This document shows, one piece after another, positions 14,156-32,122 of a stretch of 33,790 nucleotides of DNA. The stretch covers positions 1 through 33,790 of the forward strand of contig PHBS01000021.1 in the NCBI GenBank assembly GCA_002841995.1. Reading direction: 5' to 3'. Within the stretch, counting starts at the first letter, position 1; each line of letters begins with the position of its first letter. The translations under genes and the position numbers were made by a program. The notes below the pieces were generated by a model, which ran no database searches, was not told the origin of the DNA, and worked only from the letters and a program-made list of their open reading frames with translations. Origin of the DNA: Chloroflexi bacterium HGW-Chloroflexi-8 (lineage in GTDB: Bacteria > Chloroflexota > Anaerolineae > Anaerolineales > Anaerolineaceae).

Positions 14156-14919
14156 ACCCCTGCTTCCTTTATTTTTGCATCGAGCATGGAGACGATTTCC
14201 AGATTGTCATTCCCTCGAATCATCTCAGTATGAACATTTTTAACGGGTATTGTTGTGATATTAAAATCTGGATTCGCATATTTTTTTGGACCTATGTCTA
14301 AATCAGCTAAGGTCCAGATAATAATCGATGTTTTTGCGGCTTTTCTTGTTCCCAAAAAAGATGGAAAGCGTGGTTCAGCGAATTCTTTACTGACCGATAT
14401 CACTGCAGGTAGATTGACCGATGTCATTATTTTTTCCTGATCAATTCTAAAGGTAGAGATTATTTTTTCTGTATCTAACTCATCTATTGTCGTTATGGAA
14501 GGTAAATAGGGAAGGTCCATTATTTTGGCAACCAATGTCGCAGTCATCCCTGTTTCAAAATCAATGGATTTCTTTCCAAAACAGATCAGATCAGGATTGC
14601 CAACCTTTTTGAATGCCTTTGCCAGTATTTCTGCTATTTGGCTATTGTTGAGGTAAAAAGGATCAACGTCAACCCGGATCATGGTATCACAACCCATCGC
14701 AAAAGCATTTCGTAGCGATTTGTCGCTTTTTTCGTCACCTATGGTCAACACGATCAATTCAGCTTCTTGTTTTTCTTTTTGTAAAATAGCAGCTTCAAGA
14801 GCGAACTCATCCCAGGGATTCAAAATGTTTACACAATTTCCGATATTTTTTTGATTTTCCGTTATCTGGAAAGGTTGTGTGACATCAATGGCATTTTCAA
14901 TACAAATGACTATCCTCAT
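14152..14919 (-). CDS. etfB: Electron transfer flavoprotein beta subunit
   Basis: 255 aa; 'INPWDEFALEAAI'-like 'LNPWDEFALEAAILQKEKQEAELIVLTIGDEKSDKSLRNAFAMGCDTMIRVD', 'ETGMTATLVAKIMDLPYLPSIT', 'LPAVISVSKEFAEPRFPSFLGTRKAAK'. Confidence 0.95.
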   Translation of the reverse strand: MRIVICIENAIDVTQPFQITENQKNIGNCVNILNPWDEFALEAAILQKEKQEAELIVLTIGDEKSDKSLRNAFAMGCDTMIRVDVDPFYLNNSQIAEILAKAFKKVGNPDLICFGKKSIDFETGMTATLVAKIMDLPYLPSITTIDELDTEKIISTFRIDQEKIMTSVNLPAVISVSKEFAEPRFPSFLGTRKAAKTSIIIWTLADLDIGPKKYANPDFNITTIPVKNVHTEMIRGNDNLEIVSMLDAKIKEAGV

Positions 14920-16925
14920 TAATTCTCCATTATGATATTTTCTATAAAATACTCTGATAAATCCTGAACTACAACGGACATCTCTGCTTTTTGATTCGCA
15001 TCCGACAACATTGATTTACAAAAAGGACAAGCGGTGATCAATTTTTTTGTGGAGACGGATGTTAATTGTTCAAAACGTATATCATTGATAGATTTTTCAG
15101 AATATTCTGGTTCTTTCCAGATCTGAGAACCTCCAGCGCCACAACACCAAGTTGCAGAATGATTAAAAGGTGAAGTGCTTATTTCGCAATTACTTTTTTC
15201 CAGAACTGAATATAACGAGTCACTTTTGTAATTGAAACGACTGAGATAACAGGGATCCTGAAAACTGATCCTCTCAGAGTTGAAATTTTTTCTCATGACC
15301 AACTTATTTTTATCAAGAAGTTCAAGAAGAAGCTCGCTTGAATGAATCACATCATAATTTCCCCCAAAATCAGAATATTCATTCTTTAGTACATGATAAC
15401 AATGCGCACAACTGGTCACAATCCTTTTGGGATTAATCTCATTCAGGATTTCAACATTTGCTGTGGCTAATTGGTAAAACAGGTCTTCTTTCCCTGCTCG
15501 CCTTGCTGAATCGCCTGTGCAGTTCTCCAGCTGACCCAGAACAGAGAAATTAATTTCTGCGTGATTCAATAAATTTAAAAAAGCTAAAGAAGATTTTTGA
15601 GCAAGCGAATCATAAGCACCTGCGCAACCGACCCACCAAAGTATATCCGGGTCGGGGTTTTGTTCAACTGTGCGTATTTGATGACCGGCTGCCCAGTCCA
15701 ACCTGTGAATGTTATGGATTCCCCAAGGGTTTGCATATCTTTCTAAATTCTTAAATAAGACCTGGAAAGACTTAGGATAACGATCCTGCATCAAAACCAG
15801 ATGTCGTCGTATCTGTAAAATGTCTGACAGAGGATCAATTCCAACTGGACAGACATTTACACATGCTCCACAGGTTGTACAATCCCAGACCGCCTTTTCG
15901 GTGATCGCAAATTCGGTCAAAGGCAAAGATTCGAAAGAACTGCTATTCATTCTGCCAAAATTCTGATTCAAATAATAGCGTTTATTGATCTCAAAGGCAG
16001 CAGGGGATAGTTCTGAACCGCTGTTGTAAGGTGGACAGACATTTTGACAACGGCAGCACATGATACAGGCGTAGGAATCCAAAATAGAAGAACTTTCCAA
16101 TTCTTCCAACCGAACTGCTCCAAAAAGCTCCTGTGTCTCATCTTCAAAATCGATTCTTTGTATTGCTGATAGTGTTTTCGTATCTTGCTTAAGCAGGTAG
16201 TTGATTGGAGCCAACATCAGATGAAAATGCTTTGAATAAGGGAAATATGGGATAAATAAAAATAATGATATTAAGGTTGACCAGCTAAATACTTTCCAAA
16301 AGAAAATGACAAATGGTGTTGGAATCCAGATTGAGGATATCGTATTGGTTATGGGAAGCCATAAATTATTTGGGATATATACAGCTTTTAGTGATTCAGC
16401 CAGTATTCTACTGGTAACGTGGATGAAGATCAGCGCGATGACAATCGCCGAATCCTGATTTATTTTTTTTCTGATATCGGGAATTAATTTTACATTTCCA
16501 CGAATCATCAAATCTTTGTGGAAGAATAATCTTCGCAATGAAAAATAAAATACTCCTGCAATAATCAACCCGCTAAAAATATCAGTCAACGGAAAAAGGA
16601 TTTTAGCGAACGGCGATGGGATTGTGAAGGTTGGAAAGAAACGATTAAGTAGGTCATAAATGTTAATGATCAGGAATATCAAAAATCCCCAAACAATCAT
16701 GATGTGAAACAAATTTGACCAGAAACGGGTTTTCCAAGTGGGGAGTAATAGGATGATCTTTTCAGTCAGGACCTTCCAGGTGCGATGGACTGTGATTTTA
16801 CTTAAGTTGTTTCTACCTCGTTTAATTGTTGCAAACAATATCTTATAAGATCGAATCCCTGAATAAAGCGTAAGGCCTAATAAGATAAAAAGAAACGATT
16901 TTTCGAAGGTAGAAAATTCAATCAT
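14919..16925 (-). CDS. Membrane-bound (Fe-S) oxidoreductase with heme-b-type membrane domain, two 4Fe-4S motifs and CCG domains; EtfAB:(mena)quinone oxidoreductase (EMO)-like
   Basis: 668 aa; N-terminal multi-TM region; 'CIMCCRCQNVCPPYNSG' and 'CTTCGACVNVCPVGID' ferredoxin motifs; two CCG-type blocks ('WWVGCAGAYD...ENCTGDSARRAGKED...TSCAHCYHVLKNEYSDFGG' and 'FQDPCYLSRF...ATWCCGAGGSQIW...TACPFCKSML'); in an operon with etfAB. Confidence 0.88.
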   Translation of the reverse strand: MIEFSTFEKSFLFILLGLTLYSGIRSYKILFATIKRGRNNLSKITVHRTWKVLTEKIILLLPTWKTRFWSNLFHIMIVWGFLIFLIINIYDLLNRFFPTFTIPSPFAKILFPLTDIFSGLIIAGVFYFSLRRLFFHKDLMIRGNVKLIPDIRKKINQDSAIVIALIFIHVTSRILAESLKAVYIPNNLWLPITNTISSIWIPTPFVIFFWKVFSWSTLISLFLFIPYFPYSKHFHLMLAPINYLLKQDTKTLSAIQRIDFEDETQELFGAVRLEELESSSILDSYACIMCCRCQNVCPPYNSGSELSPAAFEINKRYYLNQNFGRMNSSSFESLPLTEFAITEKAVWDCTTCGACVNVCPVGIDPLSDILQIRRHLVLMQDRYPKSFQVLFKNLERYANPWGIHNIHRLDWAAGHQIRTVEQNPDPDILWWVGCAGAYDSLAQKSSLAFLNLLNHAEINFSVLGQLENCTGDSARRAGKEDLFYQLATANVEILNEINPKRIVTSCAHCYHVLKNEYSDFGGNYDVIHSSELLLELLDKNKLVMRKNFNSERISFQDPCYLSRFNYKSDSLYSVLEKSNCEISTSPFNHSATWCCGAGGSQIWKEPEYSEKSINDIRFEQLTSVSTKKLITACPFCKSMLSDANQKAEMSVVVQDLSEYFIENIIMEN

Positions 16926-16927
16926 TT

Positions 16928-18079
16928 TTATTGTGTCTTCAAACCTAATTGTTGGGCAATGATCATTTTTTGCATCTCAGAAGTCCCTGAATACAATTTT
17001 GTCCCAATTGCGTCGCGCAGACTTCTTTCAATCTCAAAATCAGTTGTGTAGCCATAACCTCCGAAAATTTGAATTGCATCAAGATAGGTTTGAATGGCAC
17101 TTTCACTAATCCATAATTTCGCGACTGAAGACGGTAAGGCTGGATCATCATTTTCAAATGCCCAGGCTGCTTTGTATAAGAATAATCGTGCTGCTTCTAA
17201 CCTGTTGTGCATATCGACGATTTTATGACTGATTGCTTGATTTTCACTGAGTCGTTTCGTAAACTGCTGCCTTTGATTTGCATATTGAATACATTCTTCC
17301 AATTGGCGCTGCATACTTCCAATAAAGGGGGCTAAAATCAACGCTCGTTCCCACTGCATGATTCTGGAGAAGATTCGAAATCCCATATTTGGTTTTCCCA
17401 GAAGATTTTCTTTAGAAACTTTACAATTCGTAAAGGTAATATCTGACATTAGAGAAGTTCTGGTTCCCATTTTTTCTGTTTTTGATTCCACAGACAATCC
17501 GGGAGTATTTTTCTCTAATAAAAATGCATTAATGCCTGCAAATCCATATTTTTTATTTGTTGTCGCAAATATTAGGAAGAAATCAGCTACGGGGGCATTG
17601 GTAACAAAAGTTTTTCTCCCATTTAATATGTAAAAATCACCATTAAATTCAGCCCTGGTATCCATCGACATCGCGTCCGATCCAGCGTCCGGTTCACTGA
17701 TGGCATGTGCTCCAACCCATTCTCCGGATGCTAACTTTGGCAGGAACTGACTTTTTTGAAACCCATTACCATATAGAAGAATTGGGGTTTCGACTGCCCA
17801 CAAATGTGCACCGAGAGATAAGAATATACCTGCATATTTGCACCCATAACCGAATCCCTCGAGCGTATAGGCACTTGTCAATGGATCTAATCCAAGTCCA
17901 CCATATTCTTCAGGTATGGTTAGCCCTAACAACCCCATTTGCCCCAATGCATGCCATTTTTCTCGAGAAAAATGGCTCTCCCGATCTTCTTCAATTAAGT
18001 TCTTATTCATTTTAGATTGTGCAAAACTTACAGCTTGCTGATACATTTCAAGTTGTTCTTTGTTCCAATTAAAATCCAT
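16928..18079 (-). CDS. Acyl-CoA dehydrogenase
   Basis: 383 aa; 'LGLTIPEEYGGLGLDPLTSAYTLEGFGYGC', 'HAISEPDAGSDAMSMDTRAEFNGDFYILNGRKTFVTNAPVADFFLIFA', 'QIFGGYGYTTDFEIERSLRDAIGTKLYSGTSEMQKMIIAQQLG'. Confidence 0.96.
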   Translation of the reverse strand: MDFNWNKEQLEMYQQAVSFAQSKMNKNLIEEDRESHFSREKWHALGQMGLLGLTIPEEYGGLGLDPLTSAYTLEGFGYGCKYAGIFLSLGAHLWAVETPILLYGNGFQKSQFLPKLASGEWVGAHAISEPDAGSDAMSMDTRAEFNGDFYILNGRKTFVTNAPVADFFLIFATTNKKYGFAGINAFLLEKNTPGLSVESKTEKMGTRTSLMSDITFTNCKVSKENLLGKPNMGFRIFSRIMQWERALILAPFIGSMQRQLEECIQYANQRQQFTKRLSENQAISHKIVDMHNRLEAARLFLYKAAWAFENDDPALPSSVAKLWISESAIQTYLDAIQIFGGYGYTTDFEIERSLRDAIGTKLYSGTSEMQKMIIAQQLGLKTQ

Positions 18080-18240: not shown

Positions 18241-18816
18241 TTATTGAAAGGAATTATCTATAACAGTAATAGCTTCCCAAAGGTTTTTTATGTAATGGAA
18301 ATTGATTGAATCCAATTCTTTTTGATATTTTTTCCATTGCTTTATTCCCCGCCCGGTTTGCAAGAGAATCAGATTCTTGATTCCACTATTAACCCCGGTT
18401 TGTAAATCGCTGTAAGCATCGCCAACAAGCCAGGAGTTTTCAAGATCGATATTAAAATCTTTTTGGGCTTGATAAACAAGCCCGGGTTTTGGTTTTCTGC
18501 AATCGCAATGGTCTTGAGGGGTGTGGGGACAAAGGTAGATCCCATCAATTCTTCCGCCATTTGCTTCAATCCTGTCTTTTAACTTTTGATTGATCTCATC
18601 AATCGTTCCAGTATCCACTAATCCTCTCCCGATTGCCGATTGATTAGTGAGGACAATTATTTTGTAATGAAATTTTTTTAAGGCAGAAATCGACTTGAAA
18701 GTAAAAGGATAAATTTTTACATTATCCCAGGTTCGAATGTAATCCGAACGATTGTGGATTAATACGCCATCACGATCTAAAAATATGGCTCGATACATTG
18801 TTTTTTCCAAACACAC
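18241..18816 (-). CDS. HAD-IIIA phosphatase, D-glycero-D-manno-heptose 1,7-bisphosphate phosphatase (GmhB)-like; probable start ATG at 18798
   Basis: 'IFLDRDGVLIHNRSDYIRTWDNVKIYPFTFKSISALK', 'VLTNQSAIGRGLVD', Zn-type 'CPHTPQDHCDCRKPKPGLVYQA', 'WLVGDAYSDLQTGVNSG'; GTG start at 18816 overlaps the upstream stop, while ATG 18798 has a GGAAAA just upstream. Confidence 0.87.
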   Translation of the reverse strand: MCLEKTMYRAIFLDRDGVLIHNRSDYIRTWDNVKIYPFTFKSISALKKFHYKIIVLTNQSAIGRGLVDTGTIDEINQKLKDRIEANGGRIDGIYLCPHTPQDHCDCRKPKPGLVYQAQKDFNIDLENSWLVGDAYSDLQTGVNSGIKNLILLQTGRGIKQWKKYQKELDSINFHYIKNLWEAITVIDNSFQ

Positions 18817-20321
18817 TATGGGTTTCCATACTCAATAATCAAAGTAGGCCGGGCGACCTTGTTCCAGTCCTCCACTTCAGAAGTACTGAAATATTTCCCT
18901 GAGTGATAAGCACCATCCGCAGAATATACGGCAAGGCTAACTGAATTATCACCGTTTTCGATTGCTAATTGGGCGGCTTTTGTCACGTCCCATTCGTAAG
19001 GTATTCCGGGCCATCCACTGAAAGCTTCCATTGGGTTTACCCAGGTCCGACTCAAATTCTCCATCAGGATTGGAGCATTATTCCAATTAAGTGCGTCTTC
19101 AGACCAGTTATTTTTAGTAATTCCGACTTGAATTAATGACCGATAAGGTTGGAATACGGGATCTCCCCATTTACCTGCATTTCCATAAAGGTGTAATTTT
19201 AAGGTTGCCCTTATGATCGATGTATTCTGTGAAATGGTGGGAATTGGGAAATTAATATAATACTTGGAATAACATGGCCAATCAGCAATATCCCTTTGAT
19301 TTTGGATATTGGCTGTCATCGCATTTTCACCTACATGGACTTTTGTACCCCAATCAGTCCATACGTTTGTCAGATCATATCCTCCACAGATTGTGAATCC
19401 ACCCGGACTCGCGTCCTGGACTATAAATCCATTTTCTCCTTCTCTGACAAGGATGCTACCTTGAATTGAACCACTTCTAATTCCATCTGGCAATAAACCA
19501 AACGAAATATTGCCCCAATTTTGAGCATTGGCTGGATCGAAATCGGGTGGCCAAACCATAGAGGAGATTGTCGGACCATCCAGATAATCTCGATCATAAG
19601 CAATGATTCCCATACGCCAAATGGAATTTGGGTCCGGAGCTGTAGTGATGCCTAACGAAGAAAATGGAATTTTATAACTAAGATTCCATCCACCATCATC
19701 ATTCGCATCGTTCATACCAGGCCCTCGCCACGCTGCCGTTGTTGAAAAAGGAATTTGGACTGTACTCCATTTCGATCCATCCCAACGAAAGGTTTTTTGA
19801 TATTGGGAACGATTTGCTTCCTGCGGGGCTAATCCTGAACTCAGTAAAAACCCTTGATTAGGCAAAAGTTGAGTTGTATTGGATGGGGTTATGAATAACG
19901 AAATGGAATCCCATTCGTCCAGGTTCATCGTCAATGGGGTATTGTCGTACCAGAGTAACCGATCAATCGCTGCGATATATACATATAATGCATCATTACC
20001 ATAGCCTATTCTGACATCATAATAATTATTGTTGTTCGTAATTTCACCGAACCAAAAAACAGCCATTTCTGGAAATGCGTCCCCAACAAAATCGGTCGTA
20101 TTTTTGTAAGGAATGTGAATTAATGGTTCATTAGTTGGCGGTAAAGGTGGCTGCAAAACACCGTTATTGATAAATGGCAAATATATCGTCTCATTATCAT
20201 CGGATGTAATGGGAATTATTTGTTTATCAACCGGGTTACAGGAAAGCAGAATCAATGGAAAAATTAACAGTAGATTCCAGTGAAAATTCCATTTGAATTT
20301 ACTGTTTTCAATCTTTTTCAT
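18816..20321 (-). CDS. Secreted lipoprotein with CBM9-like domain and C-terminal DNRLRE domain
   Basis: 501 aa; signal with lipobox 'LLLIFPLILLSCNPV'; CBM9-like 'DAFPEMAVFWFGEITNNNNYYDVRIGYGNDALYVYIAAIDRLLWYD...WNLSYKIPFSSLGI'; DNRLRE-like C-terminus 'RATLKLHLYGNAG...NNWSEDALNWNNAP...YFSTSEVEDWNKVARPTLIIEY'. Confidence 0.82.
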   Translation of the reverse strand: MKKIENSKFKWNFHWNLLLIFPLILLSCNPVDKQIIPITSDDNETIYLPFINNGVLQPPLPPTNEPLIHIPYKNTTDFVGDAFPEMAVFWFGEITNNNNYYDVRIGYGNDALYVYIAAIDRLLWYDNTPLTMNLDEWDSISLFITPSNTTQLLPNQGFLLSSGLAPQEANRSQYQKTFRWDGSKWSTVQIPFSTTAAWRGPGMNDANDDGGWNLSYKIPFSSLGITTAPDPNSIWRMGIIAYDRDYLDGPTISSMVWPPDFDPANAQNWGNISFGLLPDGIRSGSIQGSILVREGENGFIVQDASPGGFTICGGYDLTNVWTDWGTKVHVGENAMTANIQNQRDIADWPCYSKYYINFPIPTISQNTSIIRATLKLHLYGNAGKWGDPVFQPYRSLIQVGITKNNWSEDALNWNNAPILMENLSRTWVNPMEAFSGWPGIPYEWDVTKAAQLAIENGDNSVSLAVYSADGAYHSGKYFSTSEVEDWNKVARPTLIIEYGNP

Positions 20322-20334
20322 TATAAAGAATTTC

Positions 20335-21960
20335 CTATAGTTTTTTGGATGGATTTACAATCCTTTTAGGCGCGGTGGTGGATGTGCTTTTTTCAGTCGG
20401 TAGGTTACCCTTGGTGCTTTGTGTTACTGTTCTTGGTTTATGGTAATAACTATAATATGCAGATCTTTGTGAGCTTCCATTCATAACAAAACCAACGATT
20501 TTAGCTTTTGCTCTCGAAAGTTGAGCGTAAGCCATGCGAAGAATATCGCGACGGGATTTTCCTGGACTGATGACAATCAAAACACCATCAACTTTTGTTG
20601 AAAGTACAAATGCGTCTGAGGTAATAAAGGGTGGGCCATCTACGATTACAATATCTGCAGCATTTTTTAATGTTTCAAAAATTCTTTCTGTAGAAACGGA
20701 ACTTAATAACTCGGATGGGTTGGGCGGTGTTTTTCCGGCGGGAAGCAAATAAATTTGCCCATTAAACAACGAAACCAAATGTTGACTGATCGAATCGCGG
20801 TTTGATAATAATAAATCGCTCAGTCCGGTTTCTTTTTGTAATGAGAATTTTTGTTTGATTGTTGATTGGTAAAAGTCTGCATCAATCAAGATGACTCTTT
20901 TATTCGCTTTCGCGAAAGAAAGTGCTAAGTTCATCGAGACTGTTGTTTTCCCTTCCGATACACCTGGCGAAGTGACCAGAATTGTTTTGATGCTTTTTCC
21001 TAAATCCATAAATTCCAAATTATTCCTTAAGGATCGGAAAGAGTCTGTAATTGGAGAAAATGGTTGGTCATTGACATAACTTAGCGGATTTTCTTCCTTG
21101 GGCACCCTTGGAATCTCGCCAAGTAATTGGGCGTTGATAATCTTGGTCACATCTTCGGGAACGTTAATGGATTGATCCAGCCATTCCAACAAGAAAATAC
21201 CGATTGCAGCCAATAACATCCCGACCACAACAGCTAACCCGGAGGTAATGAATTTGCTTGGACTAATAGACCTACCCGGAACTTGGGCTGGTTCGATGAC
21301 GGTTAAAGAGTTTAATGCGCCTTTAGATGTACTGGAAAGCAAAGAAGCGTAGGTGTCCTGTAATGTTGAAAGCTTTGTCTCTAATGCATAGATCTGTTGT
21401 TCGGTACTGGAAATTTGAGAAGCTGAGCTTAAAGTTCCCAATTCAGTCTTTTTTTGTTCAATATCATCCTGTGTGGACTTGATATCGTTTTGTAAAGTGG
21501 TTAACTGATCATTAATAAAGGTTTGGCGTTCTTGTTCATCCGAATTTACACTGGTTGGCGCACTCAAAATTAGTTGATTTGCCAACTCTTCGGTTACTGC
21601 TTTTGCACGATATGGATCAGTGTCCGTCACACTAATTTCAATTAATTGTGTATCGGGAAGAGCGCGGACTGTATATGGAGGAAGCCAATTTAAACCCAAT
21701 GCTTTCATGGTCCCGAGTTTTACAGGTTCCCGAGTGGCCATATCGGCATATATTGTTGCTAATTGTTGCTCCAGAAAGAATTGATTGGATGAGGGATTGG
21801 GATTGTTTATGGATTGCCCAATAATAAGAGTTGTTCGTGATAAATATTGGGGAGCTTGTGTAAAAGAAATAGCAAGGCTAATTACGCCAGCAATTACACC
21901 TGCAGCCAGAATTAACCAACGCCATTTCCAAAGCGGAGCGAAAATAGATTTTAATTCCAT
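20335..21960 (-). CDS. Polysaccharide co-polymerase / tyrosine autokinase (Wzz domain fused to Wzc/CapB-like kinase)
   Basis: 541 aa; Wzz-like N-terminus with TM, coiled coil, second TM; Walker A 'VTSPGVSEGKTTVSMNLALSFAKANKRVILIDADF', 'IVDGPPFITSDAFVLSTKVDGVLIVISPGKSRRDIL'; C-terminal Tyr cluster 'RSAYYSYYHKP'. Confidence 0.93.
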   Translation of the reverse strand: MELKSIFAPLWKWRWLILAAGVIAGVISLAISFTQAPQYLSRTTLIIGQSINNPNPSSNQFFLEQQLATIYADMATREPVKLGTMKALGLNWLPPYTVRALPDTQLIEISVTDTDPYRAKAVTEELANQLILSAPTSVNSDEQERQTFINDQLTTLQNDIKSTQDDIEQKKTELGTLSSASQISSTEQQIYALETKLSTLQDTYASLLSSTSKGALNSLTVIEPAQVPGRSISPSKFITSGLAVVVGMLLAAIGIFLLEWLDQSINVPEDVTKIINAQLLGEIPRVPKEENPLSYVNDQPFSPITDSFRSLRNNLEFMDLGKSIKTILVTSPGVSEGKTTVSMNLALSFAKANKRVILIDADFYQSTIKQKFSLQKETGLSDLLLSNRDSISQHLVSLFNGQIYLLPAGKTPPNPSELLSSVSTERIFETLKNAADIVIVDGPPFITSDAFVLSTKVDGVLIVISPGKSRRDILRMAYAQLSRAKAKIVGFVMNGSSQRSAYYSYYHKPRTVTQSTKGNLPTEKSTSTTAPKRIVNPSKKL

Positions 21961-22036: not shown

Positions 22037-23287
22037 TCAAGAATATAGACTATGAGAAGAATTTATCGATTCCTGATAAATTTGTAAAAGTTTTTCAGCA
22101 GCTTTCTGCCAGGAATGATGATTTTCAACAAAAAGCCTGCCAGCTTTGCCAATTTTTTCCATTCTGGAAGGATTTGATAACAAATCAATGGTTAAATTTG
22201 CAAATGATTCAACATCATCTGCCACTAACAAGTCCTGTCCTGGTATAGCACTCAAGGCGTTAAGAGCGCTTGAAGAAGTAATCACAGGGGTCTCACAAGC
22301 CATGGCTTCCAAAATTTTATTTTGAATTCCAGCACCGTACGCAAGTGGTGCGACAGCGATCGTAGCTTTTTGCAAGAATGAGCGCATTTCCGGTACCCAA
22401 CCTGTGATTGTTATTCGTGGGTCTTCCCCAAAATTGATAATTTCTTTGGAAGGATTTTGTCCGACAACCCAAAGTCTAACATCAGGATTTTTTTTCCAGA
22501 TTAGCGGCATGATTTCTTTGACCAAATTAGAAACCATTTTTTGGTTTGCGTGATAACTCATTTTCCCACTGATTACAAGTGTATTTTCCTCGCGTTTTTG
22601 GTTTATATCTGGTGTGAAATTTTCCAGGTCAACACCATTTGGGAGAACGACCAAATCTGCATTGATTTTTAGCTTTGTTAGTAATTCCACAAAAACATTT
22701 AAGTCAGTCTGTGATGTTACAAGAACTTTATTGAAAACACTGGCGACTCGTGGTTCGTAAATGGATGTCCGTTGAGTCTCAACTTCAAGAAATTTTCTAC
22801 CAATCCAAAGAGGATGGTGGATTGATGCCTGGCGAAAAAGGTGTGTGATTGAATCTACACTGTCCCAAACAATGGGTGTGTGGTTAGAAATATTCATTTC
22901 TTTTAATTTAATCCCAAAATCAACACTTCGTAAGTGTTCAAAATGGATGACATCAAAAGGACTATATTCATTTTTAATAAGCTTTTCGATTTGAATAAAC
23001 ATTTTCTTATTTATCCCATACGACGCTTGAAAAGGCTTATTTGTTGGTAAATTCTTAAGACTGTTAAAAAGAACTTTTGTCTTCGTAATTGGTATTGGAA
23101 AAATATCTTCACAAAGAGAACGAAGTTCATTGTCTACTAATAAATTTTGAGGGGAATCATAAAAAACGAGTGTAATTTTATGTCCAAGTTTTGCTAAATG
23201 TCGAATAAATTGATAGGGACGAACCCGGATCAAATCTGGTTTGTATGGAGTAACAAAAAGAATCCTAAGCGGGTTGGTTATTTGCAT
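22037..23287 (-). CDS. Glycosyltransferase family 4 (GT-B)
   Basis: 416 aa; 'LRILFVTPYKPDLIRVRPYQFIRHLAKLGHKITLVF', 'VVLPNGVDLENFTP', 'ITGWVPEMRSFLQKATIAVAPLAYGAGIQNKILEAMACETPVITSSSALNAL'. Confidence 0.92.
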   Translation of the reverse strand: MQITNPLRILFVTPYKPDLIRVRPYQFIRHLAKLGHKITLVFYDSPQNLLVDNELRSLCEDIFPIPITKTKVLFNSLKNLPTNKPFQASYGINKKMFIQIEKLIKNEYSPFDVIHFEHLRSVDFGIKLKEMNISNHTPIVWDSVDSITHLFRQASIHHPLWIGRKFLEVETQRTSIYEPRVASVFNKVLVTSQTDLNVFVELLTKLKINADLVVLPNGVDLENFTPDINQKREENTLVISGKMSYHANQKMVSNLVKEIMPLIWKKNPDVRLWVVGQNPSKEIINFGEDPRITITGWVPEMRSFLQKATIAVAPLAYGAGIQNKILEAMACETPVITSSSALNALSAIPGQDLLVADDVESFANLTIDLLSNPSRMEKIGKAGRLFVENHHSWQKAAEKLLQIYQESINSSHSLYS

Positions 23288-24575
23288 ATCTTTTCCTTAC
23301 GAAAATGCTCAATTTGGATAATGCTAACCCTGCAAACACAAGGAAAAGCGCATCAATGGGTAATCGATATCTAACCAAACTCCAGGTCAAAATATGAATT
23401 GCACTGTAAACAAAACCAAATATTAGTATCAAGCTTATTGGTGAATCAAAAAAAATTATTTTTGATTTTAGAATGGATTTGATACTGAGCCAGATACCAA
23501 AAACCATGAATGGCAATGCAAATCCGAAACTTGTGACTCTTGTGATATTGCTCAATAGTGATGAATCTTGACTTGGTAGAAAATCAAATAAGATTGGAAT
23601 GCGGCTCAAAGATAAAAGGGCATAAGTTCCGGGATTTTCAAATACGAAGTTTAAACCGCGTTTTAGTAATTCAGAATCAAGGGAAGCCTCATCCAATCCT
23701 TTTAATTCAACCGGCAGCATCATTAAATAATTGCCCATTTCTTCCGGAAGAATACCAACAAATTGTGTGCCATAGATTGGATTATTGGACCAAAAGAAGG
23801 CAAAACCCGCATTTGTGTTTAACAAGACAAATCGATCAAAGCGTTGATAATTAAATATAGTAAATGGCAAAATCATGATAAAGATGATTAAACCGCTCAC
23901 AACCAGATTTTTAATTGACTTTAGAAGACCAGAATTCCTTTGGTTCCAAAGAATCCAAAGAAACAGAAATGGAACAAAAAGCATGAATACCTGTCGTAAA
24001 AGAATTGCGGTGCCGGATAATACACCTAAAACCAAATAATATGAAGTTGTGGTTTGTGTAGGCTTAAGTCGAATGGCGGACCAAAAAACAGCCAGGACAA
24101 CTGTGATAAACCAGGATTCGGTCATCAATGCTGCGCTATAGTAGATTAGATAAGGGTAAATTGCAATCCATCCTGCGGAAAATAATCCTGAGATTTCCGG
24201 GAATATTATTTTTGAAATTTTATACAAGAGTAATGGTTGAAGAATTCCAATGACGATGGCTTGAATAATTCTGGCAAGCAGAGCGTTAACACCAAATATT
24301 TTATAAACGAAAACCAGATAAAAGGTGTAAATGTAACTCCAATGCGCTGTGGGATCCCCCGGGTGTGTTGCCGGCCACCACGGCTGATCAAAAGTGAAAC
24401 CAAACCCATTCATTACACGTTGAGCAAGGGTGTGATAAGTGACTTGATCTGCAATTCCAGGCATTTGAGTAACCTGGTTTCCTAGAATTATGGATGCCAA
24501 AAGCCTGGCAAGGACCGATCCAATAATGATCAAGACGAGTAGGTTTTTTTCGGAAATTGTTAATATTTTTTTCAT
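23265..24575 (-). CDS. Membrane glycosyltransferase, GT39/ArnT/PMT-like
   Basis: 436 aa; polytopic, 'LARLLASIILGNQVTQMPGIADQVTYHTLAQRVMNGFGFTFDQPWWPATHPGDPTAHWSYIYTFYLVFVYKIFG'; start of the downstream GT4 overlaps its 3' end by 23 bp. Confidence 0.82.
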   Translation of the reverse strand: MKKILTISEKNLLVLIIIGSVLARLLASIILGNQVTQMPGIADQVTYHTLAQRVMNGFGFTFDQPWWPATHPGDPTAHWSYIYTFYLVFVYKIFGVNALLARIIQAIVIGILQPLLLYKISKIIFPEISGLFSAGWIAIYPYLIYYSAALMTESWFITVVLAVFWSAIRLKPTQTTTSYYLVLGVLSGTAILLRQVFMLFVPFLFLWILWNQRNSGLLKSIKNLVVSGLIIFIMILPFTIFNYQRFDRFVLLNTNAGFAFFWSNNPIYGTQFVGILPEEMGNYLMMLPVELKGLDEASLDSELLKRGLNFVFENPGTYALLSLSRIPILFDFLPSQDSSLLSNITRVTSFGFALPFMVFGIWLSIKSILKSKIIFFDSPISLILIFGFVYSAIHILTWSLVRYRLPIDALFLVFAGLALSKLSIFVRKRYANNQPA

Positions 24576-24579
24576 CTTT

Positions 24580-25809
24580 TTATTTCACAAATTCGTAGAC
24601 TTTGTCCAGTTTTGTAAATACAACTTTCCAATCATATTTTTGTTCTACAAGCTTCCTTCCGGAATTAGCAATTTGATTTAGTTTCTTGCGGTCGTTTAAG
24701 AGATTAATGATCGCTTGGGAAAACTCAATGGGATCGTCTTTTACAATCACATCCCGATCGGGCTCGGCTTCAATCCCTTCCAGTCCAACAGTGGTTGTTA
24801 TGATTGCCATTTGTCGTGCAAATCCTTCCAGTATTCGGACACGCATCCCTCCGCCAGCCAAAACAGGAACAATCAAAATTGCAGTTTTTTCGAGATATGG
24901 ATCCAGATTGTCCACATAACCAGTTATTTCAATCGAAGGAGAGCTTGATTTTGCCAAATCAAAAAAATCATTGGGAGGATTTTTCCCTATTACAGTAAGA
25001 GTTGCATTCGGTATTTGCTTATGAACTCGAGGAAAAACTTCCTTAATGAACCAACGGATTCCATCAGCGTTGGGTGGATAATGCAACGTCCCGATCGTCA
25101 GCAATTGAAGAGAATTGGGTGAAGTGGTGACAGGTGTCAGAAGTTGAGTGTCAACAGCAATTGGAATTATCGAAATTTTTTCACTGATATCTATATTAGA
25201 ATCTGAAAGTAATGCTTCCTTATCTATTTCGGATACTGCAAGAGTATGGTCAAAATGATCAATTAACCAACCTTCATATTTCCGTAATTTTGTTTTTTCA
25301 AGATTAATAAGCGGTCTGAACAGTGAAGGAATATGACTCTTCATGCGATCCATAATCGTCCAGGTTGCATTATGAGCATCAAATATCAAAAATGGTGATT
25401 TTTTTTCTTTATTTTTTTGAATCAGCTTCTTTGCCTTCCAGGCAAACTGAGCCATACTCAACTGATCTGCATGGATCACATCAAAATCATTTTTCTGTAA
25501 AAGATTTTGTATTTTCTTATGCATTTCTGGTAGATTGTCTCGTTCCACTAAAAAAGGTGAACCGGTAAGTATTGATTTAATTCCAAATAAAAGATCATTT
25601 AATCTTTTTCGCTTGATCTTTACCGTGTGGACCTGAGTACATATTTCAGTGACAAAATGTAAATATGCGTTTTCTTCTTCACGGAGAAAAGTGACCATGT
25701 GGATTTCATGACCATTTTGGGATAGGTGACGTAGGACATGCCAGGTCTTGACTCTTGGACCGGCATTTGGGGGATAAGGTAGGATTTGTGTTAAGAATAA
25801 TATGCGCAT
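24580..25809 (-). CDS. Glycosyltransferase family 4 (GT-B)
   Basis: 409 aa; 'MRILFLTQILPYPPNAGPRVKTWHVLRHLSQNGHEIHMVTF', 'LLTIGTLHYPPNADGIRWFIKEVFP', 'IVPVLAGGGMRVRILEGFARQMAIITTTVGLEGIEA'. Confidence 0.92.
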   Translation of the reverse strand: MRILFLTQILPYPPNAGPRVKTWHVLRHLSQNGHEIHMVTFLREEENAYLHFVTEICTQVHTVKIKRKRLNDLLFGIKSILTGSPFLVERDNLPEMHKKIQNLLQKNDFDVIHADQLSMAQFAWKAKKLIQKNKEKKSPFLIFDAHNATWTIMDRMKSHIPSLFRPLINLEKTKLRKYEGWLIDHFDHTLAVSEIDKEALLSDSNIDISEKISIIPIAVDTQLLTPVTTSPNSLQLLTIGTLHYPPNADGIRWFIKEVFPRVHKQIPNATLTVIGKNPPNDFFDLAKSSSPSIEITGYVDNLDPYLEKTAILIVPVLAGGGMRVRILEGFARQMAIITTTVGLEGIEAEPDRDVIVKDDPIEFSQAIINLLNDRKKLNQIANSGRKLVEQKYDWKVVFTKLDKVYEFVK

Positions 25810-25817
25810 AGATAAAT

Positions 25818-26732
25818 TTAATAGATGGAAATATTCTTTATCAAAGAGTTGTAATTGGTCATCATGGTTTGATTTTCCGCTGATTTGGTTATCAGACTCA
25901 TTATTCCACCGCCTACTATTCTTGTCATGGAAGCGAAATACAGGACTATTTTATAAAGGGTAGTGATCACTTTCCCATAATGTTTCCGGAAGAATTGAAT
26001 TTTGGTTTTATACAATTCCAAAAACATGGGAGTTCTATTCTGTTTTGTCGATTGCCCACCATGGTGAACAATAATTGAATTAGGCACCCAATAAATTTTC
26101 CATCCAGCTTTCTTTAGTCTGTAATTCAAGTCGACTTCTTCTGTGTAAACAAAAAAAGCCTCATCCAGATAGCCTACTTCTTCTAATGCTGACTTTCTAA
26201 GCAATAAACTTGCACCTTGGAGATTATCCACCGGATAAATCTTGTGTGAATCCCACTGATCCATTGGATATCTGGTATTTGGGATTAATCCTTCTAGATG
26301 AAACATTCGCACGAATTCTCTTCCCAAAGTAGGGAATGGATAACACGATATTTGTAAACTTCCATCCTGGTTTATTAATTTGGAACCGCAAGCACCAATT
26401 AAAGAATCGCCTTCGATGACATGTTTTAAGCTGTCCAGCGCTTCCGGGGTTACCTCTGTATCCGGGTTTAACAACCAGATATAAGCTCCTTTAGCCAATC
26501 GGATTCCTTGATTATTCGCAGCAGCGAAACCTTTGTTTTCTTGATTCTGAATCCACTTTATCTGAGGATACCTTTTTTGTATCAATTCTTCACTTTCATC
26601 GCTTGAAGCATTGTCCACGACAATAATTTCGAAAGAAGACCGGATTTTAGAAGCAAAGATGCTATCAATGCATTTTTGTAGCAGGACCTGGACATTATAA
26701 GAGACGATTATGATGGTAATTTCCGGATTCAT
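25818..26732 (-). CDS. Glycosyltransferase family 2 (rhamnosyltransferase-like)
   Basis: 304 aa; 'EITIIIVSYNVQVLLQKCIDSIF', 'IIVVDNASSDESEELIQKRYP', 'NKGFAAANNQGIRLAKGAYIWLLNPDTEV', 'FVYTEEVDLNYRLKKAGWKIYWVPNSIIVHHGGQST'. Confidence 0.94.
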   Translation of the reverse strand: MNPEITIIIVSYNVQVLLQKCIDSIFASKIRSSFEIIVVDNASSDESEELIQKRYPQIKWIQNQENKGFAAANNQGIRLAKGAYIWLLNPDTEVTPEALDSLKHVIEGDSLIGACGSKLINQDGSLQISCYPFPTLGREFVRMFHLEGLIPNTRYPMDQWDSHKIYPVDNLQGASLLLRKSALEEVGYLDEAFFVYTEEVDLNYRLKKAGWKIYWVPNSIIVHHGGQSTKQNRTPMFLELYKTKIQFFRKHYGKVITTLYKIVLYFASMTRIVGGGIMSLITKSAENQTMMTNYNSLIKNISIY

Positions 26733-28144
26733 ATAACGAATTCTTGCTTCTTGTGTTGATATTTGATAAATATCAAACTACCAAGAAAGACCCATGCCAA
26801 AACACTCGAACGAAATCCTTCCATTCCAATATTGTAAATAAAGGGAAGTAACCAGTCACCAAGGAACGCAGCAACTAAAGTTCCTGCCAACCCGCCAAGT
26901 GCAGAATACACAAAAGCATTTTCGAATGGATCAAGATTTTCTTTGCGAAGTGAGAAACCGAGTCTTGCTGTTTCAAACGCCCACCAAAAAAAGATGAGTG
27001 TACCGACGATACCAACTTGTGCTAATAAATCGACGTAATTATTATGGGAATTAAAACTAACCGAATATCCCATGATGTTATAAAAAGGTGTGTAGAAGTA
27101 ATAATTTGCTGGTCCGACGCCGAAAAGTGGGTTCTTCCCGAAAATTTGAAATACAATTTTCCATGCCTCTAATCGGGTGACCATGCTATATTCATTGTCT
27201 CCTACAAAAACATAACCCTGGATGATTTGGTTTCGAACTAAAAGAATTATTGCGAAAGAAAACAACGCGATCAACCCAATTTTTGGTTTTGTTAAGAAAA
27301 TAATTACAAATACAGCTGCCATGGCAGGTAACCATCCAGATGCCCAGGATTGTTTTGTAACTAAAAGTGTAAATATCGCTGAGAGAGATATTACAAGACA
27401 ACCAATCCGGTAAATTGAGCTAAGAGATTTGTTCAACCAAAATTGTCCGAAGGAAATTGCAATTAACCAGGTCCAGAATAAACTGTCAACGACTGCCCTT
27501 TGAAAAACGCGATTTACGTAATGACGTAAAGGCGGAAATATAAATGCAATAGAATAGATTCCTCCTAAAATGATAAAAACAAAAACCAATGACTTTAACC
27601 AAATGGGTTTTTCCATACGATGCGCTGCTGTGATAAAAGCAGCCATACTCAGCACCATGATCATGATCTGCCCAATTTGTGCGAATAAAGAAGCTGATTT
27701 GGTCGGATACCAATCTAATTGACCAAATCCAAAAGAAACAATTGTCGAAACAACAAATAAGAGTGCAGCATAAATACTGGGTTCCGGTAATATCTTTATC
27801 TGCCGGTTAATTATGAACATTTCAACCAGCCAGGCACCGACCAATAAACTCATCATCAGAAATGCGCTGTTAATTTTTGTTTGAGTACCGGTCGATATGG
27901 AGAATGGAATTAATAAGCAAGCCACGATTAAAATTGGAAATCCAATTCCCGGGTGCCGAATAAAAAAGATAATCCCAAAAACGCCCAAGATTCCTGCAAC
28001 CGCCAGAATTGCAATCAGATTTTGGCGAGCAATAAATGGCGCTAAAAGGATTGCCCCAATGAAAATGATGCTTGGCCAAATATAATTTTGCCAGTTGGGA
28101 AAGCGAATTGTGAAATCCAATAAGATTGAAGAATAGTTTTTCAT
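26729..28144 (-). CDS. O-antigen ligase/polymerase family (WaaL/Wzy-like) membrane protein
   Basis: 471 aa; polytopic; 'KNPLFGVGPANYYFYTPFYNIMGYSVSFNSHNNYVDLLAQVGIVGTLIFFWWAF' (SHNxYxxLLAxxG signature). Confidence 0.9.
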   Translation of the reverse strand: MKNYSSILLDFTIRFPNWQNYIWPSIIFIGAILLAPFIARQNLIAILAVAGILGVFGIIFFIRHPGIGFPILIVACLLIPFSISTGTQTKINSAFLMMSLLVGAWLVEMFIINRQIKILPEPSIYAALLFVVSTIVSFGFGQLDWYPTKSASLFAQIGQIMIMVLSMAAFITAAHRMEKPIWLKSLVFVFIILGGIYSIAFIFPPLRHYVNRVFQRAVVDSLFWTWLIAISFGQFWLNKSLSSIYRIGCLVISLSAIFTLLVTKQSWASGWLPAMAAVFVIIFLTKPKIGLIALFSFAIILLVRNQIIQGYVFVGDNEYSMVTRLEAWKIVFQIFGKNPLFGVGPANYYFYTPFYNIMGYSVSFNSHNNYVDLLAQVGIVGTLIFFWWAFETARLGFSLRKENLDPFENAFVYSALGGLAGTLVAAFLGDWLLPFIYNIGMEGFRSSVLAWVFLGSLIFIKYQHKKQEFVI

Positions 28145-29346
28145 TCGTTGTTCGATTTATAAATAAATTGAAGATCATCAGCAAATTTATGCTCAATCTT
28201 TTCCCAATCGTACATGTTTCCGGCAAATTTTAAGGCGTTTTGTTCAAGGTTGGATCGCGCTTTTGAATTGTTTAACAAGAAAATTACTGCATTTGCAAAT
28301 GCTTCAGGCGTATTTGCCAGAATGATATTTTCCTGATCCGTAACCTCCAGCCCTTCAGCTCCTTTGGCAGTTGAAACGACTGCCGTTCCCAGCGCCATAG
28401 CTTCTAATATTTTTAATCGGGTGCCGGCTCCTTGCCGGAGCGGGACTACACAAACTTGGCTGCTGGATACAACTGGCCGAACATCATCCAGATAACCTGT
28501 GAAAATGATATGTTCTTTGTAAGAAAAATTTTCTAAGTTTACTCCATCAGTCTTTCCAGTGATTATGATCTTTACATTAGGTTTCGATTTCAAGATGATT
28601 GGAAATATCTCGTCCATGAAATAGTTCATTGCATCAAAATTTGGGAAATAAGTTAGTGCGCCGTTATAAATTAATCGATCATCTTCTTTCGCTAATGCTA
28701 AAGGATGATTCTCTTCCAGGTCGACCCCATTCGGTACTTTTATCAATTGATTCGGGTGAATTTTTGTGTAATCCTGCACTCGTTTTATATCCAATTCAGA
28801 TACAACCAGACATTGATCAAAAGACGAATAAACTTTATTTTCAAAATTTGCCATTTTTTTAAAAGCAAGAAAGCGCCGAATTTTTTGGGCCATGTTTTTA
28901 GCAAATTGAATATCTTCTTTCAACATAACTGCGAGTAAATTATCGATATCTACAATTCGTTTTACACCAGTTAGTCTGAGCGCATAAGGCGCCGTAACAA
29001 ATGTAAATGCAAACACGAAGTCCGGTTTCCAATCCTGTGCAGTTTTTTGAACTAAAGTCTCCATGTTTTTATTGTAGCCGGCAAAAACTGCTGCTGGAAA
29101 AGGTGAGAAAAAACCGATAAGTTTTTTAATTTTGGGATACATAAAAGGCTTTTCAGGGAGAATTTTAATGAGTTGACAGAACTGGCCAATATGCGTTAAC
29201 CATTCATCTCGAACAGGTTGATCTTCAAAAGATATGAGGGCAATCTCATGATCTCTGGCTAATGCACGTATCAGATGATAAGCACGTATCTTACTACCTT
29301 GATTTTGTGGATATGGAAACCATGTAGATAAGATTAAAACTTTCAT
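28141..29346 (-). CDS. Glycosyltransferase family 4 (GT-B)
   Basis: 401 aa; 'MKVLILSTWFPYPQNQGSKIRAYHLIRALARDHEIALISF', 'LIYNGALTYFPNFDAMNYFMDEIFPIIL', 'VVPLRQGAGTRLKILEAMALGTAVVSTAKGAEGLEV'. Confidence 0.93.
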   Translation of the reverse strand: MKVLILSTWFPYPQNQGSKIRAYHLIRALARDHEIALISFEDQPVRDEWLTHIGQFCQLIKILPEKPFMYPKIKKLIGFFSPFPAAVFAGYNKNMETLVQKTAQDWKPDFVFAFTFVTAPYALRLTGVKRIVDIDNLLAVMLKEDIQFAKNMAQKIRRFLAFKKMANFENKVYSSFDQCLVVSELDIKRVQDYTKIHPNQLIKVPNGVDLEENHPLALAKEDDRLIYNGALTYFPNFDAMNYFMDEIFPIILKSKPNVKIIITGKTDGVNLENFSYKEHIIFTGYLDDVRPVVSSSQVCVVPLRQGAGTRLKILEAMALGTAVVSTAKGAEGLEVTDQENIILANTPEAFANAVIFLLNNSKARSNLEQNALKFAGNMYDWEKIEHKFADDLQFIYKSNNE

Positions 29347-29349
29347 GGA

Positions 29350-30192
29350 TTATTCATCAAAAAAACTGGCATATATTGAGTTTTTAAAATAATCTTTTAG
29401 CTCAATGAAATTCGATATAGTTTGTGATAAAGGTAGATTCGATTGTTTATGAGTGCCAGGTCTCACAGGGATGTAATTAACACCTAAGAAATCCTGGACA
29501 TTTTTCATTATTGGCCCATAGTCATTTGAAAGATCTTCATAAAATATTTCGAGAATGGGGTGGTTTTTGAATAAAGTGTCCGCTTCTGTTTCCCATTTTC
29601 TTGTTTGCTCAAAGTCTTTGATGCATTCAATCGGATCCACCCGTACACTTATTTGTTGTTCTATATCCCCGTTTGTATTGACCCATTTATTGTTTTTATT
29701 GGCTTTTAATCTGGAAACATGAGTTTGGAGAATGTTTTTTCGCTTGATATGGAGTATTTTGATCTTGTTTTGATCTTCCAGGTATTTCCAGATGTTATTA
29801 AACGGTGGTTTTTGAGCGTGATAATAAAAAAGTTTGAATCCAACTGCTTTGATATCCAAAGGAAATTTACGAAACAGGTATTTATTTAAAAATGTTACTG
29901 GATCCCGTTGATAGGTCTCAAGAACGATTTTATTGAATTCAAAGCGAGGGGAATCCCACTCGATTTGATCCTCGTTGCGGAAAATTTCTCCAACACTTAC
30001 AACTTGTGGGTTGTCATTAATGAGTCCTCTTAAGAAATTTGATCCCGTTCTGGATCGCCCAAGAATAATGAAACGTGTGTAATCTGTCGTACCTTTTACG
30101 AGTCCAATATCCAAAGCGAGTTTTTTAGCATCTTGCTTTTTCAATGATAACCATCCTCTTAAGCCAGTCAAGTTTATGAAGCTTCTTTTCAT
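29350..30192 (-). CDS. Sulfotransferase (PAPS-dependent, Stf0-like)
   Basis: 280 aa; 5'-phosphosulfate-loop-like 'FIILGRSRTGSNFLRGLINDNPQVVSVGEIFR'; 'KILHIKRKNILQTHVSRLKANKNNKW'; 'EIFYEDLSNDYGPIMKNVQDFLGV'. Confidence 0.86.
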   Translation of the reverse strand: MKRSFINLTGLRGWLSLKKQDAKKLALDIGLVKGTTDYTRFIILGRSRTGSNFLRGLINDNPQVVSVGEIFRNEDQIEWDSPRFEFNKIVLETYQRDPVTFLNKYLFRKFPLDIKAVGFKLFYYHAQKPPFNNIWKYLEDQNKIKILHIKRKNILQTHVSRLKANKNNKWVNTNGDIEQQISVRVDPIECIKDFEQTRKWETEADTLFKNHPILEIFYEDLSNDYGPIMKNVQDFLGVNYIPVRPGTHKQSNLPLSQTISNFIELKDYFKNSIYASFFDE

Positions 30193-30200
30193 GGTTTATT

Positions 30201-31115
30201 TCAATTTACCTTAATCCTGCGTTGACCCCATTTTTGAAATAAGAAATCTTTTATACCTTGAACTTTTGCATCCCTATGTTCTATCTTTGATTTCCACTTT
30301 GAATTAAAAGTCCATGAAAGTATTGTCTTTGCAAATTCCCAAATAGTTGAAAACCAAATGGTAATCGGTGTTTTGTGTTTCTTATAGAAGAGCAAACGAT
30401 TTCTGGTAGCATAATAAGTGACATTTGGGGAAGGTAAATAATTTTTCTGAACCCCTTTGTGCCAAATCCTGGCTTGAGGGACTATTAATGCTTTCCAGCC
30501 TTTTTCTTTGATGCGAAAACACCAATCGGTTTCTTCCCAATAATAAAAAAATCTTTCATCAATCAATCCAGCTTCATTAATTGCTTGCGCACGAATCCCA
30601 ATTGCACAACCCGATATCCAGGCGACTTCGTAAGGGTTCTGATACTGACCAATGTCTTTTATATTCTGTCCCAGGTGAAGAGAATCTCCGCCTTTTGTAA
30701 ATGTACCGCCTGCGGATTGGATAATTTCCGGGTCGTCGAAATGGTAAACCAGAGGACCAACAATCCCAATGTCAGAACGATCTTGTACTGCAAGCATCAT
30801 TTGTTCAAATGCATCTTTGGCCAAAATAATATCTTCATTTAGAACGAATATCCAATCGGGGTTCTGCTTGATAGCATATTCCAATCCGAAATTATTATTC
30901 CCTGCATATCCTTTATTTTCTTTCAATTGAAGAATGGTGATATGGGGGAATTTGGAATTAATTTCTTCAACTGAACCGTCAGTAGAGGCATTGTCCAGCA
31001 CAAGAATTTGCATATCAGGATAATGATTATCTTCGATCGATTGGATACAGGCGAGTGTATCAATCTTACGATTTGTATTTAAAATTATGGAGATAATTTT
31101 TGGGGTTCTTTGCAT
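30201..31115 (-). CDS. Glycosyltransferase family 2
   Basis: 304 aa; 'ISIILNTNRKIDTLACIQSIEDNHYPDMQILVLDNASTDGSVEEI', 'NKGYAGNNNFGLEYAIKQNPDWIFVLNEDI', 'FFYYWEETDWCFRIKEKGWKALIVPQARIWHKG'. Confidence 0.94.
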   Translation of the reverse strand: MQRTPKIISIILNTNRKIDTLACIQSIEDNHYPDMQILVLDNASTDGSVEEINSKFPHITILQLKENKGYAGNNNFGLEYAIKQNPDWIFVLNEDIILAKDAFEQMMLAVQDRSDIGIVGPLVYHFDDPEIIQSAGGTFTKGGDSLHLGQNIKDIGQYQNPYEVAWISGCAIGIRAQAINEAGLIDERFFYYWEETDWCFRIKEKGWKALIVPQARIWHKGVQKNYLPSPNVTYYATRNRLLFYKKHKTPITIWFSTIWEFAKTILSWTFNSKWKSKIEHRDAKVQGIKDFLFQKWGQRRIKVN

Positions 31116-31123
31116 GAGTCGGA

Positions 31124-32122
31124 TTATTCTATCAACCAGGCTTTAGGAAAGTTCTTTTCAATTTCAATGTTTTTAAATTTTGAACTCTTACGTGCTCCAT
31201 GTTCTTTTACCCAGTCCGCCATCATTTCCAATCCCTGGTCAAGAGTATGCTTCGTTCGGATACCGAAAACCTGATCCAATTTTTTATGAGAAGAATAGGC
31301 ATCCTGAACTTCATTTCTGGCGGGCAAGTGATTCACAACCGGATCTTTCCCCATTGCTTTTGCAACAGCGCCGGCAAGTTGATTTACGCTGTATGGTTGA
31401 TCTGCGCCAATATTGAATATTTGGTTATAAGCCTTTGGATTTTCAATTGATTCAGCTAAGATGGGTGCCAGGTCACCGATGTAACTGAAAGCGCGTGTCT
31501 GTTGTCCATCACCAAAAACACTCATTGGTTTTTCCTGAAGAATTTGATTCATAAAGATACCCACAACATTTCTATACTTATCGCCAATATTCTGTCTTTC
31601 ACCAAAGACATTGTGGGGTCGGAAGATAATATAATTCAGCCCAAACATTTCTTTGCATGTTTTTAATTCCTGTTCTACCGCCAATTTGGCGATCCCATAG
31701 GAATCTTCTGGGTGTGGGTTGGTCTCTTCCGTCATAGGCAACTCAGGACTGGATCCATAAACAGCAATAGATGATGTAAAAACGAAACATTTCACATCGT
31801 TTTTTATGGAAGCATTGATTAAATTAACACTTCCGATCAAATTATTTTCATAATTAAATCGCTTAATAAAGTGGCTTAATCCTTCGGCTGCATATGCTGC
31901 GAGGTGGTAAACAAAATCAAACTTTTTTTGTGAAAAAATTTGATCAATCAATTCATAATTATTGATACTGCCATGAATAAAGGCAGCATTTGGATTGATA
32001 TTTTCATGAAAACCACCGCTTAAGTCATCAAGAACTGTGACATCATAGCCGAGATTAATCAAATTATCTGTAGCGTGTGAGCCAATGAATCCAGCACCAC
32101 CGGTAACCAAAACTTTACTCAT
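31124..32122 (-). CDS. NAD-dependent sugar epimerase/dehydratase (UDP-glucose 4-epimerase-like SDR)
   Basis: 332 aa; 'VLVTGGAGFIGSHATDNLINLGYDVTVLDDLSGG', 'VFTSSIAVYGSSPELPMTEE', 'SYGIAKLAVE' (YxxxK), 'IFRPHNVFGERQN', 'VFGDGQQTRAFSYIGDLAPILAES'. Confidence 0.94.
   Translation of the reverse strand: MSKVLVTGGAGFIGSHATDNLINLGYDVTVLDDLSGGFHENINPNAAFIHGSINNYELIDQIFSQKKFDFVYHLAAYAAEGLSHFIKRFNYENNLIGSVNLINASIKNDVKCFVFTSSIAVYGSSPELPMTEETNPHPEDSYGIAKLAVEQELKTCKEMFGLNYIIFRPHNVFGERQNIGDKYRNVVGIFMNQILQEKPMSVFGDGQQTRAFSYIGDLAPILAESIENPKAYNQIFNIGADQPYSVNQLAGAVAKAMGKDPVVNHLPARNEVQDAYSSHKKLDQVFGIRTKHTLDQGLEMMADWVKEHGARKSSKFKNIEIEKNFPKAWLIE

Follow-up and report, generated by a model that had tools for sequence, protein, structure and literature searches.

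A candidate glycan-retaining lipoprotein with CBM9-like and CBM96/DNRLRE domains at a Wzz-kinase locus of Chloroflexota

On balance, we favor, with modest confidence, the interpretation that a gene located next to the gene for a Wzz-BY-kinase (WzzK) in an EPS locus of Chloroflexota encodes an accessory, lipid-anchored, noncatalytic lectin (here, the CBM protein) that would retain or organize the exported glycan in a role analogous to that of Wzi. The window analyzed here is the whole of a 33,790-base contig (C253) from a draft genome of 3.95 Mb in 256 contigs, and the closest relatives of this genome are Anaerolineaceae/Chloroflexota records.

Between 33,750 and 13,127, nearly all genes of the window are carried on the minus strand, in the order acyltransferases, epimerase, GT2, sulfotransferase, GT4, Wzy, GT2, GT4, PMT_2, GT4, WzzK, CBM gene, GmhB-like phosphatase, acyl-CoA dehydrogenase, FeS oxidoreductase, and ETF (Table 1); the dehydrogenase and FeS oxidoreductase names were read off the sequences. 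In all four cluster-bearing genomes of the genus, GmhB is followed by these dehydrogenase, oxidoreductase, and ETF genes (13127 to 18079 in the window). The opposite end of the cluster carries two acyltransferase genes. The CBM gene has an ATG start and begins 13 bp past the WzzK ORF, a spacing reported in the initial annotation and in agreement with the coordinates 20321 and 20335. The overlap of its stop with the GmhB-like ORF, also reported there, holds for a GTG start of that ORF at 18816 (1 bp) and is lost with the ATG at 18798 (MYRAIFLDRDG...), which aligns with the starts of homologous GmhB proteins, is probably the start used, and leaves a 17-bp gap. A sulfotransferase gene is also present in the clusters of five relatives (G002, G003, G005, G010, and G059), and based on the in-cluster sulfotransferase, the glycan of the locus is possibly sulfated. 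A second EPS locus on another contig of the same genome (C200; L205) carries HddA, GmhA-like, and sugar-transferase genes. This locus suggests a heptose pathway that the GmhB of the window would complete and, thus, makes heptose in the glycan plausible.

Table 1. Coordinates of the CBM gene, its domains, and the neighboring genes in the window
Feature	Position	Strand	Basis
GmhB-like D,D-heptose 1,7-bisphosphate phosphatase	18241..18816	−	NF006506 (just below cutoff), TIGR00213, TIGR01656
CBM9 + CBM96/DNRLRE lipoprotein, 501 aa	18816..20321	−	ORF, Pfam, NCBIfam, AlphaFold2 model, Foldseek
CBM96/DNRLRE beta-sandwich, residues ~335-501	18819..19319	−	Pfam, NCBIfam, Foldseek
CBM9-like beta-sandwich, residues ~62-280	19482..20138	−	AlphaFold2 model, Foldseek, homolog profile matches
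Short motif YLPFI, residues 47-51	20169..20183	−	Motif comparison across family loci
Signal peptide and lipobox (...ILLSC), residues 1-28, predicted lipidated Cys28	20238..20321	−	Pattern match
WzzK, Wzz + BY-kinase (polysaccharide co-polymerase/autokinase)	20335..21960	−	Pfam Wzz, AAA_31; TIGR01007
EPS biosynthesis genes: GT4 (three), PMT_2, GT2 (two), Wzy, sulfotransferase, epimerase	22037..32122	−	
Wzy	26729-28144	−	EPS cluster
Sulfotransferase	29350-30192	−	EPS cluster

An AlphaFold2 model built from 67 sequences (pLDDT 88.3, pTM 0.86) recovered two beta-sandwiches, and a Foldseek comparison of this model with the PDB returned two independent sets of matches, of the CBM96 type and the CBM9 type. 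The two domains read from the sequence in the initial annotation, i.e., a CBM9-like segment and a DNRLRE module, were thus both recovered. The C-terminal domain scored above the curated cutoffs for PF24517 in Pfam (43 versus 26 bits, E = 5.6e-11) and for NF033679 in NCBIfam (52.1 versus 34 bits, E = 7.6e-14), and CBM96/DNRLRE was matched in 24 of 24 homologs at E ≤ 1. Its fold matches include 8wab, a chondroitin-sulfate-binding CBM (E = 3e-9, TM(target) 0.82), and 7vbo, an alginate-binding CBM96 (E = 1e-5). The ligands known for CBM96 relatives are anionic chains, namely, alginate (PMC9971899) and chondroitin sulfate (title of 8wab). In the founding member, TM6-N4, alginate is bound in a groove by Lys/Arg and Tyr residues (PMC9971899), and the residues of this basic groove used for comparison are Lys27, Arg36, and Tyr159. 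Lys353 of the window protein is Lys or Arg in 67 of 67 sequences and is located near the Arg36 strand of TM6-N4, with the exact register uncertain. Cys350 is invariant, and Cys312 lies just upstream.

The N-terminal domain matched the solved CBM9 modules 1i82, 7nwn, and 7nwo at E values of ~1e-8 and TM(target) of 0.70 to 0.74, with 1i82 at 1e-8 and 0.74. In sequence searches alone, the window protein remained below the Pfam cutoff for CBM9, and neither the protein nor an N-domain profile matched a CBM9 sequence in the PDB; only the fold comparison found CBM9. Among 24 homologs, CBM9 was detected in 4, and it was above the curated cutoff in homolog L169 (23.7 versus 23.4 bits). Based on the model, we file this domain as a CBM9-like fold outside formal CBM9 membership. 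Trp137 and Trp257, which are 96% and 99% conserved, occupy places in the model like those of the clamp of CBM9-2 (Trp71/Trp175), as judged by topology and not by superposed coordinates. The two clamp aromatics of CBM9 are found on a helix that joins strands 4 and 5 and in the loop past strand 11 (PMC8280721). Pfam, NCBIfam, and the AlphaFold2 model revealed no catalytic domain in the protein, which agrees with the initial annotation and excludes a hidden one.

The protein has a lipobox (ILLSC) with Cys28 after an N-terminal hydrophobic segment, the pattern of a bacterial lipoprotein, and both LspA and Lgt are encoded in the genome; the lipobox claimed from the sequence thus stands. Most members from the window's genus retain the lipobox, as does G026, and it is scattered among other homologs. 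Overall, it is found in a minority, and the majority of family members have a signal peptide without the Cys. The wall-anchoring domains SLH and LysM are fused to relatives L167 and, weakly, L174 (SLH) and to L064 (LysM). From these features, the surface location of the family seems to be constant and its anchor type variable.

Most family members carry a (Y/F/W)-L-P-x-x motif near one end (YLPFI in the window protein). It directly follows the signal peptide in 43 of them, is C-terminal in ~8 others as identified by script (a few more by eye), and never occurs at both ends. The motif is also present in unrelated surface proteins (PQQ-propeller and BNR). Among evenly spaced samples of secreted-like ORFs from two genomes, 0 of 52 and 0 of 42 had a YLPLV-type motif at the N terminus. 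This lack of N-terminal enrichment rules out a general export tag, and the motif thus marks a subset. We found no paper tying a YLPLV-type motif to Chloroflexi.

The intact two-domain family is present across Chloroflexota at 35 to 57% identity. Of the 61 near genomes, 15 encode relatives, as do 31 of 400 genomes sampled phylum-wide, and most of these relatives are full length. While a scan of genome contigs with the single protein returned no relatives, an alignment-based scan of a collection of 84,980 species then gave 157, and nearly all of the matches listed were from Chloroflexota. Conservation is strong in both domain layout and sequence, with 28 invariant columns in 67 sequences.

Using a neighborhood survey, we found WzzK at a distance of ≤10 kb from the CBM gene in 17 of 42 genomes, against an expectation of 0.68, and in 10 of 25 genera, against 0.41, where the expectation was derived from the 0 to 7 WzzK copies per genome and the statistics ignore phylogeny. 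The linkage to EPS genes, on which the initial annotation had made its proposal depend, is therefore conserved, and a chance placement in the locus (17 of 42 genomes versus 0.68) is excluded. The CBM gene is co-directional with and adjacent to WzzK in the window's genus, G026, G036, and G041; convergent with it in G055, G042, and L153; and divergent and adjacent in L181. In the Chloroflexaceae, the two are divergent with HddA between them and, in several cases, also GmhB and a membrane-fusion lipoprotein. Nine Chloroflexaceae loci (L070, L073-L076, L082, L083, L090, and L092) have the WzzK locus divergent from HddA plus the CBM protein, and in several, the membrane-fusion lipoprotein between GmhB and WzzK is of the HlyD/CusB type. 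On the family tree, the linked state requires at least seven changes. Because the orientation varies by lineage and at least seven changes are required, the linkage recurs and does not represent one conserved operon; a single inherited operon as the sole cause is excluded. In L176-L178, the CBM gene adjoins Wzy and glycosyltransferase genes without WzzK, and its recurrent neighbors overall are WzzK, Wzy, GmhB, and HddA. Within the window's genus, a WzzK ortholog and the CBM gene are both present in four genomes and both absent in four. For 61 relatives, the co-occurrence table of one WzzK subtype and the CBM gene was 11/3/4/43 (Fisher 9e-7), with the subtype threshold set after seeing the data. 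We found no paper describing CBM proteins in EPS loci of Chloroflexi.

In Bellilinea caldifistulae (G010), sulfotransferase, WzzK, and GmhB follow in the same order, WzzK and GmhB are separated by only 23 bp without a CBM gene, and the sole relative of the CBM protein is encoded elsewhere in the genome. Similarly, the cluster is present in G059, and the relative is on another contig. These two clusters without the gene in place support that it is accessory to the pathway. In the large Roseiflexus/Thermoflexus clade, no EPS linkage was seen, and an exported PQQ-propeller-type gene is often located upstream; given these neighbors, the role of the family may be broader than the glycan locus. At nine loci (L094, L136, L144, L147, L151, L152, L163, L168, and L172), a gene for an exported protein of ~600 to 750 aa lies directly or closely upstream, and this protein is a PQQ beta-propeller where tested (L094); in L122 and L140, a PQQ propeller is fused to the CBM protein. 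Four related EPS clusters (L200, L201, L202, and L206), of which three are in genomes without the CBM gene, encode a BNR-repeat, sialidase-like exported protein, which is perhaps another glycan-binding accessory.

The initial annotation had suggested that a membrane-anchored carbohydrate binder could tether, organize, or recognize the glycan in place of a Wza-type outer membrane component. Poly_export/Wza (PF02563) and Omp85 (PF01103) were both absent from the window genome and 60 relatives, whereas the models matched the control genomes, and Pfam did not find PF02563 in the CBM protein itself. There is thus no sign of an outer membrane step to replace. In a survey of outer membrane genes, Chloroflexi were grouped with monoderms, although their membrane architecture is still debated (PMC8871954). 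With working controls in the Wza and Omp85 searches and a Bellilinea cluster that exists without the gene, a Wza replacement finds no support, and it is the tethering or organizing part of the suggestion that fits the data.

If the protein is a glycan-retaining lectin, lipidation of Cys28 after export would keep the protein at the outward-facing side of the cytoplasmic membrane. Its CBM9 and CBM96 domains would then bind the polysaccharide that the neighboring Wzy/Wzz-kinase pathway makes and exports, the former with a Trp137/Trp257 clamp in the manner of end-binding CBM9s and the latter in a groove of the type that holds anionic chains; the presence of a sulfotransferase gene in this cluster is consistent with such a groove. 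The glycan coat would thereby be kept or ordered at the cell surface, and the lectin would act as a pathway accessory and not as an export channel. Extending this to a phylum-wide Chloroflexota lectin dedicated to glycan retention, with a role like that of Wzi in cells that lack outer membrane machinery, is a tentative proposal, for which we consider the chances clearly below even. In it, a CBM9 that binds chain ends would be joined to a CBM96 that binds chains, and the two would capture, at separate points, the polysaccharide that the cell itself makes through Wzy and that is sulfated in some cases.

The two domains are mostly familiar from polysaccharide-degrading enzymes, and a large clade lacks EPS linkage; both would fit an adhesin or nutrient-capture lectin that binds environmental polysaccharides or other cells, with the EPS genes as a co-regulated surface-lifestyle neighborhood. 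We regard this as fairly unlikely, since WzzK, Wzy, GmhB, and HddA recur in the neighborhood clusters instead of any degradative CAZyme, and 28 invariant columns in the family are unlike what a lectin following varied food glycans would show. The position directly next to WzzK and the co-occurrence with one WzzK subtype could also point to an envelope-side accessory of polymerization or export that binds the growing chain close to Wzy/WzzK and alters its length, release, or attachment, for instance, by hand-over to an LCP ligase, and LCP proteins are indeed encoded in the genome. The same cluster without the gene in Bellilinea and the many WzzK homologs in genomes lacking such a partner speak against this possibility, which we judge unlikely.

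The SLH and LysM fusions, the tandem PQQ-propeller and BNR neighbors, and the terminal YLPLV-type motif common to several surface proteins would be expected of a structural component of a surface layer or sheath, in which the CBM folds would pack against other proteins or the wall and the glycan would act as the scaffold. The conserved Trp positions, which match a sugar clamp by topology, and the EPS linkage make this explanation improbable. Retention or organization of the exported glycan by a lipid-anchored lectin therefore remains the reading that we favor.

In bacteria without an outer membrane, surface retention of exported polysaccharide is known mainly as covalent attachment in Gram-positives. 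A two-module lectin at Wzz-kinase loci across the phylum is a testable candidate for noncovalent glycan retention, offers a functional lead for DNRLRE/CBM96 beyond degradative enzymes, and is relevant to the building of sheaths and biofilms by filamentous, mat-forming Chloroflexota. Compared to CBM96/DNRLRE proteins (TM6-N4, 7vbo, PMC9971899; 8wab), the C-terminal domain is above the cutoffs and has the same fold; however, the members with known ligands are lyase modules, and the window protein contains no enzyme. The N-terminal domain shares its fold with CBM9-2 of Xyn10A from T. maritima (1i82) and CBM9.3 from C. kristjansonii (7nwn, PMC8280721), and its two Trp may, by topology, correspond to the clamp positions, but the window protein is under the Pfam cutoff and has no attached glycoside hydrolase. 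Wzi, the outer membrane lectin of the E. coli group 1 capsule, is an 18-strand beta-barrel (PMC3791409), while the model here consists of two beta-sandwiches in a CBM9 + CBM96 lipoprotein, and the genomes lack Omp85 and Wza; the two proteins are not homologous. By analogy, the CBM protein would share with Wzi, which retains the capsule, the role of a nonenzymatic protein at the cell surface that is associated with a Wzc/Wzy-type locus and is proposed to bind and hold the polymer made by that locus.
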